Shown one piece after another: positions 9,460-20,413 of a stretch of DNA of 20,413 bases. The DNA comes from a virus. Made by a program: the position numbers and the translations under genes. Position 1 is the stretch's first letter, and each line of letters starts with the position of its first letter. The notes beneath the pieces are model-generated. The model did no database searches, had not been told where the DNA came from, and saw only the letters and a program-made list of their open reading frames with translations. The stretch lies in IMG/VR virus record IMGVR_UViG_3300027306_000019, positions 1 through 20,413 of that record. One strand, written 5' to 3'.

Positions 9460-10080
9460 ATGGTCGACAAAAAGCGGCTCGTCTACGCCGGCATCCACCC
9501 CACACAGGCAGCGGTGTTCGCAGACCCCCTGAGGGCCGCGATGTGCCTGTTCGCCATCGACACCCCCGTACGAGCTGCGGCGTTCATTGCGCAGATGGCG
9601 CACGAGTCGGCGGACTTCACACAGCTGCAGGAGAACCTGTTCTACTCCAGTCCCGAGCGGATCCGTGCAGTGTTCCCGTCGCGCGTTCCTGATCTGGCCG
9701 CTGCCGCCAAGCTGGCGCGCAATCCGGAGGCCCTGGCCAACACGGTGTACGCCGGCCGGATTGGAAACGGGGATGTCGCCAGCGGCGATGGGTGGAGGTT
9801 CCGCGGGCGTGGGTTGGTGCAGCTCACGGGGCGGGCCAACTACTTCGACGCGGAGCGGGGGCTGAACCGACCCTACACCACCAACCCGGAGCTGGTCAGC
9901 CAGCCCGCGGACGCTTGTCTCACTGCGGCGTGGTTCTGGCACAATCACAAGCTGAACGTGCTGGCGGACGCCAGCCACATCGACGCCATCACGCGCGTCA
10001 TCAACGGGCCCAAGATGATGGGCGCTGCTGACCGGAGGCAGCGATTCGAGCAAGCGCTCAAGGCTTTTCGAGAGGTGTGA
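9460..10080 (+). CDS. Endolysin, glycoside hydrolase family 19 (chitinase-like) muramidase
   Basis: Product of 206 residues. GAGGG (9451-9455) lies 4 bases before ATG 9460. The family hallmarks are clear: AAFIAQMAHESADFTQLQEN with the likely catalytic acid Glu49 in HES, YAGRIGNGD, and GWRFRGRGLVQLTGRANY (about residues 111-128), the GH19 substrate-cleft signature. The C-terminal part has AWFWHNHKLNVLAD and ITRVINGP, also typical. Length fits a single-domain phage GH19 lysin with no separate wall-binding domain. There is no signal peptide, so export depends on a holin; the 3TM holin gene starts two bases after the stop. It would cleave the peptidoglycan sugar backbone from inside the cell at lysis. 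Confidence 0.92.
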   Translation: MVDKKRLVYAGIHPTQAAVFADPLRAAMCLFAIDTPVRAAAFIAQMAHESADFTQLQENLFYSSPERIRAVFPSRVPDLAAAAKLARNPEALANTVYAGRIGNGDVASGDGWRFRGRGLVQLTGRANYFDAERGLNRPYTTNPELVSQPADACLTAAWFWHNHKLNVLADASHIDAITRVINGPKMMGAADRRQRFEQALKAFREV

Positions 10081-10081
10081 G

Positions 10082-10624
10082 ATGGATCCGATCTCGGTAG
10101 CGCTGGGTCTGGCGCAGTTCTTCCCGGCCATTGCAAAGTGGGTGACGGGGAGCGACAAGGCCGCCGAAGTTGCCGAAAAGGTTGTCAAGGTCGCCAAAGT
10201 GGTGACCGGCAAAGACACCGGCGAAGAAGCCTTGGAGGTCATCAAGGTCGATCCGACTGTGGCCCTGCAGTTCCAGCAGGCCATGTTCAAGCACGAGACT
10301 GACCTCAACGCCCTCGCGGTCTCGAATGCCTCGGACATCAACCAGACGATGCGGGTCGAAGCCGGCAGTGAGCGCTGGCCGCAGTATTGGTGGCGCCCAG
10401 CCATCGGCTTTGCAGTGGCCATCGCCGTGATCCTGTCGGTGCTGGCCGTGTTCATGGCGTACATCGCGCTGTTCTACGGCCGGGCTGAGGGTGTGGCAGC
10501 GCTTCCGGGGATCCTGGGCGCCATTGCCGGGATCATCGCTGTCGTGTCCCCGATCCTGGGCATCGCGTCGTGGTTCCGCGGCAAAATGCAGGCTGATCCG
10601 AACATCCCCAACCCGAATCGCTGA
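10082..10624 (+). CDS. Holin, GTA-type 3TM family
   Basis: Product of 180 residues. AGAGGTG (10071-10077) lies 4 bases before ATG 10082. An N-terminal hydrophobic helix (MDPISVALGLAQFFPAIAKW) is followed by a Lys-rich amphipathic segment (KAAEVAEKVVKVAKVV), a helical middle part, then WWRPAIGFAVAIAVILSVL (from about residue 103) and a third hydrophobic stretch GILGAIAGIIAVVSPILGI (about 143-161) before a basic tail. The 'WRP' entry to the second membrane helix and the overall layout match the 3TM holin family used for phage and gene-transfer-agent release (Pfam GTA_holin_3TM). It would form membrane lesions that let the endolysin reach the wall. No Rz/Rz1-type spanin pair is evident next to it. 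Confidence 0.78.
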   Translation: MDPISVALGLAQFFPAIAKWVTGSDKAAEVAEKVVKVAKVVTGKDTGEEALEVIKVDPTVALQFQQAMFKHETDLNALAVSNASDINQTMRVEAGSERWPQYWWRPAIGFAVAIAVILSVLAVFMAYIALFYGRAEGVAALPGILGAIAGIIAVVSPILGIASWFRGKMQADPNIPNPNR

Positions 10625-17129: not shown

Positions 17130-17154
17130 ATGGGGCCTTCAGCGGAGGCCCCAT
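17130..17154 (+). promoter_or_regulatory. Perfect 9-bp hairpin burying the ribosome site and start codon of the giant gene
   Basis: ATGGGGCCT (17130-17138) pairs without mismatch with AGGCCCCAT (17146-17154), around the 7-base loop TCAGCGG. The Shine-Dalgarno GGAGG (17144-17148) lies at the loop/stem border and the first two bases of the start codon ATG 17153-17155 are the end of the stem, so both are occluded when folded. Just upstream TAGAAT (17126-17131) matches five of six bases of a -10 element, but no -35 is found. No T-run follows, so termination is not supported. The layout suggests control of translation start for the giant protein, for instance by translating ribosomes from the upstream gene opening the fold; its stop is only eight bases before the stem. 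Confidence 0.65.
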
Positions 17155-20100
17155 GCCTGTTTACACGATCACCGCGCCGAACGGCAAGTCCTACTCGATT
17201 GAGGGCCCCGAGGGCGCTACCCGCGAGGAAGTCGTCGCCGAGATCCTCCGGCGCGACCCCAGTGCCGCCAACCCACCCCCGAAGCAGACCATCGCGGGCA
17301 ACGTCAAGGAGTTCGCCAAGGGCGTGGTCCCAGGCGCGGTTGGCCTCGCGGAAACCGCCGCGATTGGCGCGTCTGCGCTGCTGCCGGACGACAAAGAGCG
17401 GGCAGTCCGCGACACCATCAAGTCTGTGGCTGACACCGCCAAAGCCCCGTTCGCCCCCGCCGCCGGGTACGAGGACGCGGTTGGTCGCAAGTTGGGTGAA
17501 GGTGTCGGGTCAGTGGCCCCGTTCCTGGCCATGGGCCCCCTCGGCTTGGCAGCCCGCGCGGCAGTTGGTACCGGTGTCGGCCTTGCTGCCGGCGCAGGTG
17601 AGGCCCGCGTACGCGCGGAGCGAGACGGCGCTACTGCAGACCAGCGAGCCACGGCGACGGCGTTGGGCATGATCCCAGGCGCGATCGAGTCGCTGCCTCC
17701 GTTCCGCATTCTCGATCGCCTGCCCGATGCAGCCAAGTCGGCCGGCATGCAGATGATCCGTCGTGCCGCGATCTCCGGCGGCGAGGAAGCCGCGCAAGAG
17801 GCCGCGCAGCAGTTTGCGCAAAACCTGATCGCCAAGGGGATCTACAAGCCTGAGCAGTCCCTGACCGGTGAAGTGCTGGATAATGCCTTGGTCGGTGGTG
17901 GGGTCGGTGCGCTGACTTCTGCATTGCTGGACGCCGCGGTAGGACGCCGCGCACGGACCACTACCCAGACTGACGCCACGCAGAAAGCGCTCGAAGCCCG
18001 CGTTCTGGCGTCTCAAGAAGCCGCTGCGCGTGCACAAGAGCCGGCACTGAAGGCAGCCAAGCCCGGTGCGCAAGGCCAGCTGTGGGAAGACATCCCTGGT
18101 CCGCGCCCGCAGGCTGCGCCGAGTGACGTTGAAGCTGAGGCTGCCGGTGAGGTCGATCCCGCCCAGATGGGGTTTGCGTTCGACGACGCCCAGGGCTACG
18201 GTGACCTGTTCAAGGAACGTGAGCGCCTGCGCCAGGGTGAGAAAAGTCCGGAAGCCAAGGCTCGCATCGACGAGATCTCCGCGCAGTTGCGGGGTCGCGA
18301 CGTGCAAGACGTATCCGACGTGCGCAAGGCCAAGAAGTCTGCGTTCAGCGCCGACGTCCTGCCGGAGCCGGTTCGGCGCGACAGCCTGCAGGACAACGGC
18401 CGTCGCAAGCCCGCAGAGCCCCACGCACTGACTGACCAAGTCAACGAAGAAATGGTCGGCCCTACCGCGGCCGGGTGGGCACAGAGCAAGTCCGGCCAGC
18501 GCTTCCTGCAGGAAGTCGGGCAGCTGCTGGACGCCAACAACGGGGATCTCGCCGCGGTGCGCATGTACCGTGACAAGCTGGTCCCGAAGACGAATGTGGT
18601 GAAAGGAGCCATCTTTGATGCGATCGTTCAACCCGACCCCGCGACTGAGCCAAAGGCTTATCAACCTGAGCTCGGAGGAGCTCAGCTTAGCCTGGGCCTA
18701 CCTGAACGCGACCCTGGCCGGGGAGAACCCGCCGATCCCGAAGTCGCTGGCGGGCCTGACCGTGCTGGACTGGCAGATGGCGCACGAGCTGATGGACCTG
18801 TGTATGGAGCAGAAGCGCAGCGAGCTGCACCACTGACGCCGGACCCGGAGCCGACGCCGGAGCCGCTTCCTGAGCGCATTCCGGAAGAAGACGTGGCGCC
18901 CACCCTGGACTCTGATCCCGAGGTGGACCCCAGCAAGGTGGCTCCCCCGACGATCGAAGCGCTGCGCGAACGCCTGACCCAGGTGCTGAATGACCGTGAT
19001 GCGCCCCGAGAGATCAAGCAGGAAGCCTTCAAGCTCTACGACTCGATCGACCCGGAGAGCCAAGAAGGGCTGCTCGACACTCAGGAAGATGTGGCTGCAG
19101 CGTACACGTACGCCGCCAAGCAGTACGAAAAGCTGATGGATCGGCAAGACCGCCTGCTCAACCGCTGGAAGCACAAGGCGGACGAAGGCGATGCGACTAC
19201 CGACGGCCTGGACATCGACTCACTGCGCCTGATGGAAAAGGGTGACCTGCAGGGCGTGCTGGCGCATGTCGCTGACCGGCACCCGAACCCCGTGGTGGCC
19301 GCTGTCGCCAACCGCGTTCGCCCACTGCTGGGGGCTACCAAGCTGACAATGCACAGCGAGCTCAAGACCAAGTCCGGTCAGAGCGCCCGCGGCGCGGCGA
19401 CAGTGGATGGCAGCCGAGTCATGCTCCGCCGGCGCGGCGCCGACGCGGAAGTGGTCGTACACGAAGCAGTGCACGCAGCCACCGAGCACGTGCTGCAGAA
19501 CCCGAAGTCGTGGACTCCAGACCAGCGCGCGGCTGTGCAGACGCTCCGAAGCCTCCACAACGCAGTGCTGGAGGCGGGCGTCCGCATGCCCGAGCCGGCC
19601 AAGACGGACCTGTCTGAGTTCATCGCCGAGGCGCTCTCGAACGCTCGAGTGCAGGCCCAGATGAAGCAGATCCCCTGGAAGCAGCAGACCGCGTGGCACT
19701 GGTTCAAGTCCGCGCTGCTCAAGATGCTGGGCGTGCAGACCCCGACCAACGCCCTGGAGGCTACCCTGGAGGCCGCCGACGCGGTCTTTGCCGCGCCTGA
19801 GCCGGTGGCCAAGTCGAATCCGCTCAACGTGAAGTTCTCGTTCGACGACGTGGTCAAGAGCAGCGAGGCGTATCAGGAGGGCGACGGCCCGGTCCGCAAG
19901 GCGGTCAAGTCGTTCGCTGATGCGTTGCGCACGTCGGGCGGGGTCAACCCGGGCACCAAGTTCCGCGTCTTGACGGTCGATTCGCTGGCCAGCGTCAGCA
20001 ACCGGTTCAACGCCTTGTTCGACAACGCCGTGCGCACGTCGTCCGGCATCGTGAACCCTGAAGGGGCGCTGCGCCAAGCCCAGGATACGGCCAAGCTGCT

Positions 20101-20413
20101 GCTGCCGTTCGTCGACCGTGGTGGGTTGGCCAAAGACCCCGCGACTGGCCAGTACCACGCCGTTGATGCCGAAGACTCCACCGCGAACATCCTGCGGGAC
20201 ATCACGGCTTGGGGCGAGCAGCAAGGCATGGACGAGCGCACTGCGTCCACCGCGGTGTCCAAGATGTTCGAGGCCATCCGCCTCGATGGTATGCGCCAGA
20301 GCAACGCCACCGGTGACACGGACTTCCCGATCCACCGCCTGTCGAAGAACGCCCCCGGCACGGCCGACCAGCAGATCGACGAAGCACTCGCCGAGGTGCT
20401 CAAACACCCTGAG
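17153..20413 (+). CDS. Giant polyvalent virion/ejection protein with HExxH metallopeptidase motif (partial, runs off the end)
   Basis: I read this frame codon by codon: 1087 codons with no stop to the last base. The N-terminus YTITAPNGKSYSIEGPEGAT is one I know from large phage virion proteins. Hydrophobic Gly/Ala segments lie near residues 117-149 and 237-264, flanking EEAAQEAAQQFAQNLIAKG; these could enter a membrane during DNA ejection. Residues ~489-600 are a Pro/Glu/Gly-rich linker over the nested gene. H770-E771-A-V-H774 followed by EFIAEAL (E822, E826) is the zinc-metallopeptidase pattern of phage 'large polyvalent' proteins (HExxH plus a later Glu). The remaining part is helical. It probably fills the place of T7 gp15/gp16. 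The start ATG 17153 is within a hairpin. Whether it is one chain or is cleaved or split near the linker is open. Confidence 0.8.
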   Translation, partial: MPVYTITAPNGKSYSIEGPEGATREEVVAEILRRDPSAANPPPKQTIAGNVKEFAKGVVPGAVGLAETAAIGASALLPDDKERAVRDTIKSVADTAKAPFAPAAGYEDAVGRKLGEGVGSVAPFLAMGPLGLAARAAVGTGVGLAAGAGEARVRAERDGATADQRATATALGMIPGAIESLPPFRILDRLPDAAKSAGMQMIRRAAISGGEEAAQEAAQQFAQNLIAKGIYKPEQSLTGEVLDNALVGGGVGALTSALLDAAVGRRARTTTQTDATQKALEARVLASQEAAARAQEPALKAAKPGAQGQLWEDIPGPRPQAAPSDVEAEAAGEVDPAQMGFAFDDAQGYGDLFKERERLRQGEKSPEAKARIDEISAQLRGRDVQDVSDVRKAKKSAFSADVLPEPVRRDSLQDNGRRKPAEPHALTDQVNEEMVGPTAAGWAQSKSGQRFLQEVGQLLDANNGDLAAVRMYRDKLVPKTNVVKGAIFDAIVQPDPATEPKAYQPELGGAQLSLGLPERDPGRGEPADPEVAGGPDRAGLADGARADGPVYGAEAQRAAPLTPDPEPTPEPLPERIPEEDVAPTLDSDPEVDPSKVAPPTIEALRERLTQVLNDRDAPREIKQEAFKLYDSIDPESQEGLLDTQEDVAAAYTYAAKQYEKLMDRQDRLLNRWKHKADEGDATTDGLDIDSLRLMEKGDLQGVLAHVADRHPNPVVAAVANRVRPLLGATKLTMHSELKTKSGQSARGAATVDGSRVMLRRRGADAEVVVHEAVHAATEHVLQNPKSWTPDQRAAVQTLRSLHNAVLEAGVRMPEPAKTDLSEFIAEALSNARVQAQMKQIPWKQQTAWHWFKSALLKMLGVQTPTNALEATLEAADAVFAAPEPVAKSNPLNVKFSFDDVVKSSEAYQEGDGPVRKAVKSFADALRTSGGVNPGTKFRVLTVDSLASVSNRFNALFDNAVRTSSGIVNPEGALRQAQDTAKLLLPFVDRGGLAKDPATGQYHAVDAEDSTANILRDITAWGEQQGMDERTASTAVSKMFEAIRLDGMRQSNATGDTDFPIHRLSKNAPGTADQQIDEALAEVLKHPE
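18602..18608 (+). promoter_or_regulatory. Strong ribosome-binding site of the nested gene
   Basis: AAAGGAG lies 9 bases before ATG 18618, inside the reading frame of the giant gene (where it encodes part of Val-Lys-Gly-Ala). It is as good as the best ribosome sites in the window, for example the identical AAAGGAG before 4381. A TTG three bases before the ATG could also serve. The site supports independent start of the nested frame. Confidence 0.7.
18618..18836 (+). CDS. Nested gene in the +1 frame inside the giant virion gene; unknown small protein
   Basis: Product of 72 residues from ATG 18618 (a TTG at 18615 would add one Met). AAAGGAG lies 9 bases upstream. By hand count 66 of 72 codons end in G or C in this frame, while the overlapping giant frame has only about 31 of 73; just outside the nested gene the giant frame returns to roughly 80-85%. 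So selection here follows the nested frame. The protein looks folded: LSSEELSLAWAYLNATLAG and LTVLDWQMAHELMDLCMEQK are two likely amphipathic helices joined by a Pro-rich turn. The giant protein has a low-complexity linker in the same stretch, as expected when a constrained gene is overprinted. I do not recognise the family; an assembly factor or regulator for the large protein is a guess. Confidence 0.72.
   Translation: MRSFNPTPRLSQRLINLSSEELSLAWAYLNATLAGENPPIPKSLAGLTVLDWQMAHELMDLCMEQKRSELHH

Follow-up and report, generated by a model that had tools for sequence, protein, structure and literature searches.

In the virus record of 20,413 bases analysed here (the whole of it hereafter named the window), a 72-residue open reading frame located inside the gene of a giant predicted polyvalent virion protein, and read in the +1 frame relative to it, is very probably (probability about 0.93, estimated from the sequences of the window and its relatives) a real protein-coding overlapping gene. 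The giant gene spans positions 17153–20413 of the plus strand and remains open to the window end, with 1087 codons present here and its 3' end beyond; complete relatives of this gene mostly comprise about 1,800–2,600 codons. The nested gene (18618–18836, plus strand) begins with an ATG at 18618 and ends with a TGA at 18834–18836, and it is preceded by the Shine-Dalgarno (SD) sequence AAAGGAG at 18602–18608 on the same strand. The giant open frame, the nested start and stop and the AAAGGAG motif had been pointed out in an earlier note on this DNA, and all of them were confirmed in the window. The SD motif is separated by 9 nt from the ATG and by 6 nt, the spacing typical of the family, from an in-frame TTG at 18615; both starts are plausibly spaced, and the nested product may therefore have either 72 or 73 amino acids. 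Across the overlap (18617–18836, plus strand) the giant frame reads as a disorder-prone linker rich in Pro, Gly, Ala and Glu, without detectable amino-acid constraint. The zincin-like motif HEAVH of the giant protein (19460–19474, plus strand), in a region that matches a zincin profile, lies 3' of the nested gene.

The codon signature over the overlap was compared between both frames. A recount gave G or C at the third position (GC3) in 66 of 73 codons of the nested frame and in 31 of 73 codons of the giant frame, reproducing the 66 versus 31 counted by hand in the earlier note. As a null model, the codons of the giant gene were redrawn synonymously 5000 times. The nested-frame GC3 was about 65 by default in these redraws and the +1 frame was equally open in 3928 of them, so that an open +1 frame and a high nested GC3 are both expected from the amino acids of the giant protein and neither is surprising alone. 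The giant GC3, in contrast, was expected to be 56.6, and none of the 5000 redraws fell as low as the 31 observed. This indicates that the signal consists in the loss of the signature from the giant frame. The codon-usage score (nested minus giant) reached 0.76 in the overlap, whereas none of 44 other windows of this giant gene exceeded 0.04. In every hit compared among the relatives described below, GC3 across the overlap was lower in the giant than in the nested frame. The codon-usage contrast failed to exceed that of every other giant window in 26 of 68 contigs, and the nested frame of one locus (L034) showed atypical codon usage.

When the nested protein was used as the sole query, no close match was obtained in viral contigs, named phages or family libraries. 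The upstream tail-stabilization protein retrieved 80 relatives, many of them too short to include the giant gene, and an iterated profile detected the nested protein in the window and in seven of them, in all cases inside a giant open reading frame and with an unchanged frame relation. Another 82 loci, identically arranged, came from scans with sub-family alignments. A third sample of 79 new loci was chosen by the N-terminal domain of the giant protein, independently of the nested gene; 63 of them carried it, and since four of the other 16 end before the site, this amounts to 63 of 75 untruncated loci. The homologues that the earlier note had proposed to look for were thus present in 154 environmental phage-contig loci, which contain 120 distinct DNA and 111 distinct protein sequences (distinct-sequence counts are given because some loci are overlapping pieces of the same contig). 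The 111 proteins form 89 clusters below 90% identity; the median identity is 37%, and conservation is still seen among sequences of about 23% identity. The nested frame was +1 relative to the long giant frame in 154/154 loci, the third frame over the overlap was closed by stop codons in 152/154, and neither opposite-strand nor free-standing copies of the nested gene were detected among the 154. No relatives were found in GTDB genomes, nor in named phages by tblastn. The retention of the nested frame by most of the relatives examined makes a real protein almost certain. One locus (L137, 4800–6200) has an intact nested frame with the giant frame broken on either side; it was considered as a split giant gene and rejected by eye, as the breaks look like single-base indels derived from assembly error or decay.

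A putative SD sequence of at least 4 nt, at a spacing of 5–9 nt, precedes 66 of 68 homologous starts, and one of at least 5 nt precedes 54 of 68. The corresponding background at other out-of-frame ATG or GTG codons of the giant genes is 11.7% and 2.5%, respectively, although the count at nested starts is somewhat inflated because each start was taken as the best of several candidates. The remaining two of the 68 sequences have no SD in the expected range, and in locus L136 the nested start would be TTG. Among the homologues, ATG and GTG interchange as starts and TAA, TAG and TGA are all used as stops.

Divergence by codon position was compared in 23 disjoint pairs of sequences. Within the overlap, divergence at positions 1, 2 and 3 of the giant codons was 0.289, 0.203 and 0.118, whereas in the flanks, which were alignable in only part of the 23 pairs, it was 0.161, 0.133 and 0.369 upstream and 0.195, 0.160 and 0.426 downstream. 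Hence, giant position 3 is the most variable in the flanks and the least variable in the overlap, where position 1 becomes the most variable one. The excess of changes at nested position 3 over nested position 2 had p = 2e-24. Classified substitutions gave dN/dS values over the overlap of 0.30–0.45 for the nested frame and 1.0–1.5 for the giant frame, a simplified estimate (not OLGenie) with a small doubly synonymous class. The nested protein is under purifying selection, and none is detectable on the amino acids of the giant protein in the overlap. Both the substitution pattern and dN/dS show the excess of constraint in the +1 frame by which the earlier note had proposed to judge its central claim, an overlapping +1 gene across the linker of the giant; that claim is now also backed by homologues and by a conserved start, stop and ribosome site. 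By composition, the overlap segment of the giant contains more disorder-promoting residues than its N-terminal part. Reinitiation of the giant protein at the nested stop was considered as well and rejected, since no giant-frame ATG was present within 7 codons in 150 loci, compared with 26% of background windows.

The nested proteins have a median length of 58 amino acids, a median pI of 4.7 and a C-terminal residue that is Gln or His in 68/68 sequences. A Trp residue is invariant where aligned, and Ala, Pro and Leu positions are near-invariant. AlphaFold (AF2) predicted a hairpin of two helices whose loop contains proline, with a pLDDT of 86.7 for the central member of the family and of 74.8 for the protein of the window, whose predicted helices comprise residues 19–33 and 49–70. 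No known family was matched in PHROGs, Pfam, PDB or PADLOC, and no fold relative was found by structure search. Twelve weak hits to phrog_5825, a partial match of 28 residues, and a match to PADLOC PDC-M16B (0.005 for 4 of 55 members) were judged to be due to chance.

With regard to the giant protein, LPD38 is present in the giants of L102, L100 and L141, the last of which also contains the ADP-ribosyltransferase domain ART-PolyVal, and an HExxH motif lies 3' of the nested gene in most carriers. The domains of these complete relatives identify it as a predicted phage-type polyvalent protein; the window ends short of the LPD38 region, and the zincin-like match at HEAVH is its only sign of this type. 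In the comparison with N4-type virion RNA polymerases, a weak match to a virion RNA polymerase PHROG covered only residues 738–925, around the zincin motif, the rest of the gene being outside the window. The giant gene follows stabilization and ejection-like genes. From this gene position, the LPD38/zincin architecture and the weak match to a virion RNA polymerase, a role as ejection protein is plausible. In nearly all carriers, the overlap marks the junction at which the N-terminal domain meets the zincin/C-terminal part. L109 has the nested gene at giant residue 954, 3' of the zincin motif and still in the +1 frame, and its sister L016 lacks the nested gene; the order in L109 indicates that the place of the nested gene relative to the domains can change. 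A simple association between the presence of the nested gene and that of the zincin was not clean.

At least 8 of the 12 untruncated loci of the N-terminal-domain sample that lack the nested gene have a different large module in its slot. Roughly 1150 residues separate the N-terminal domain from the zincin or the contig end in L185, L197, L199, L204, L219, L220, L231 and L236 from this sample, and in L003 from the stabilization-protein sample. Those of the modules that were compared fall into sub-groups of related sequences and match nothing in the carriers. The comparison of L198 covered its N-terminal part, and L200, L239 and L243 look like duplicates or close relatives of L199 and L236. The non-carriers L007, L016 and L081 are placed elsewhere in the tree, adjoining carriers, a pattern that looks like repeated loss. 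Retention of the linker with loss of the nested gene, which the earlier note regarded as the pattern that would speak against it, is not how the losses look: in at least eight of the 12, and in L003, a different module occupies the slot.

The start context suggests that the nested gene, wholly contained in the giant gene, would be translated by internal initiation from its own ribosome site on the shared mRNA. A chance open frame, or a constraint imposed by an RNA or DNA element instead of coding, is extremely improbable; an open +1 frame this long is in itself unremarkable in this GC-rich window, but the constraint is codon-periodic in the nested frame, the protein is conserved down to the lowest identities given above, and start and stop codons interchange among their synonyms. 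Production of the same residues by a programmed frameshift from the giant frame, which would yield a shortened giant ending in another tail and no independent small protein, would agree with the constant relative frame in all loci. It is nevertheless very unlikely, since nearly all 68 sequences keep a start and a well-placed ribosome site where the conserved block begins, and the open stretch of the nested frame 5' of this start varies in length. As to what an independently translated protein would do, we tentatively propose that the small acidic two-helix protein is a dedicated partner of the giant, serving for instance as an assembly or packaging chaperone, or as an inhibitor that would restrain the zincin or other activities before ejection. 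This role is suggested by linkage, which shared descent would also produce: no fetched locus had the small gene without the giant, and it is absent where another module fills the slot (nine loci). Nearly as possible, with a somewhat lower probability, is a small host-takeover or anti-defence protein that is unrelated to the giant and shares only its DNA. Many phage host-takeover factors are small acidic proteins. Polyvalent proteins, moreover, act in early phage-host conflict (PMC5512222). Against this stand the lack of any copy outside the giant gene in the 154 loci, the location of the nested gene among late structural genes, and the lack of a PADLOC match beyond chance, in a library that consists of defence and not anti-defence proteins.

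Whatever the function, the small gene would be the functional frame over the overlap, and ribosomes translating the giant would cross it in the only other open frame, the readthrough yielding a flexible linker from the N-terminal domain to the zincin/C-terminal part. Two histories could have led to this arrangement, and they are about equally likely on present data, each having a probability of roughly one in three. In one of them, raised in the earlier note and compatible with the nested gene as described, the small gene is the older one, two flanking virion genes fused through its unused frame and the linker of the giant is the newer layer. The native codon signature and the selection in the small gene next to an unconstrained giant linker agree with a fusion, as do the location of the overlap at a domain junction and the conserved hairpin, which favours an older small gene. 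A similar scenario, in which a primordial short S gene lay between two separate genes, has been proposed for P and S of hepatitis B virus (PMC8227390). However, a split giant with the small gene between its parts, as the earlier note had suggested seeking, was not encountered among the 154 loci with the nested frame, which speaks against this history. In the other history, the giant was already fused when the small gene was overprinted de novo inside its permissive linker, and selection followed afterwards. The new frame is +1 in most overlapping viral genes, above all in internal ones (PMC8227390), and relaxed constraint in the linker would permit overprinting. Against this history stand the good conservation of the small protein, its confidently predicted hairpin, its invariant Trp and its nearly fixed Ala, Pro and Leu, all of them unlike a young gene, and the native codon signature of the small frame. 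Codon usage tracks the frame under stronger selection, and in overprinted genes of great age it can converge (PMC8227390); it is therefore no sure guide to which layer came first. A broader scheme, in which the middle of the giant is an exchangeable slot for either the small read-through gene or the module of about 1150 amino acids, a fusion took place around the older gene and an obligate partner was replaced by the module, is considerably less likely.

Overlapping genes as a kind are already known. The comS gene inside srfA of Bacillus subtilis (PMC12350097) is a precedent of a gene inside a gene, but comS is a bacterial competence regulator in a surfactin-synthesis gene, whereas in the present case the host gene codes for a phage protein and many diverged phages share the arrangement; no sequence relation is claimed. 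The S gene of hepatitis B virus is likewise an other-frame gene within a large multidomain protein, in an unrelated virus with unrelated proteins, and the phages described here are without a known split ancestor. Embedded phage Rz1 spanin genes, such as JC1 gp75/gp76 (PMC9144972), also place a whole phage gene within another in a different frame; Rz1 is a lysis lipoprotein, while the product described here is predicted to be an acidic helical hairpin encoded inside a polyvalent-protein gene. The giant is, judged from its complete relatives, a phage-type polyvalent protein (LPD38, zincin, ART), and the small gene is an additional layer. In the 2017 survey of these proteins (PMC5512222) the word 'overlapping' is absent and 'nested' is used just for a hairpin fold. 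A literature search, with most subscription papers outside its reach, retrieved no description of this gene family, of its host gene or of the one-sided constraint. The gene is a strongly supported overlapping gene of tailed phages without a match in the annotation libraries searched, and its host belongs to a class studied for its role in early infection. Selection acts on one frame, with the other riding along as a linker, so that birth order and the cost of read-through become testable. The data also suggest that gene callers that forbid nesting have missed the small protein in most members of this environmental phage group.

Another candidate nested frame was observed in Synechococcus phage MinM2 (L083, 18098–18304), inside a giant gene annotated as RelA/SpoT. 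It lies in the +1 frame, encodes 69 amino acids and has a 6-nt SD and a GC3 of 0.99 versus 0.57; the family profile gives no match to it. In the window itself, two open reading frames (9460–10080 and 10082–10624) resemble, by eye, a GH19-type endolysin and a holin.
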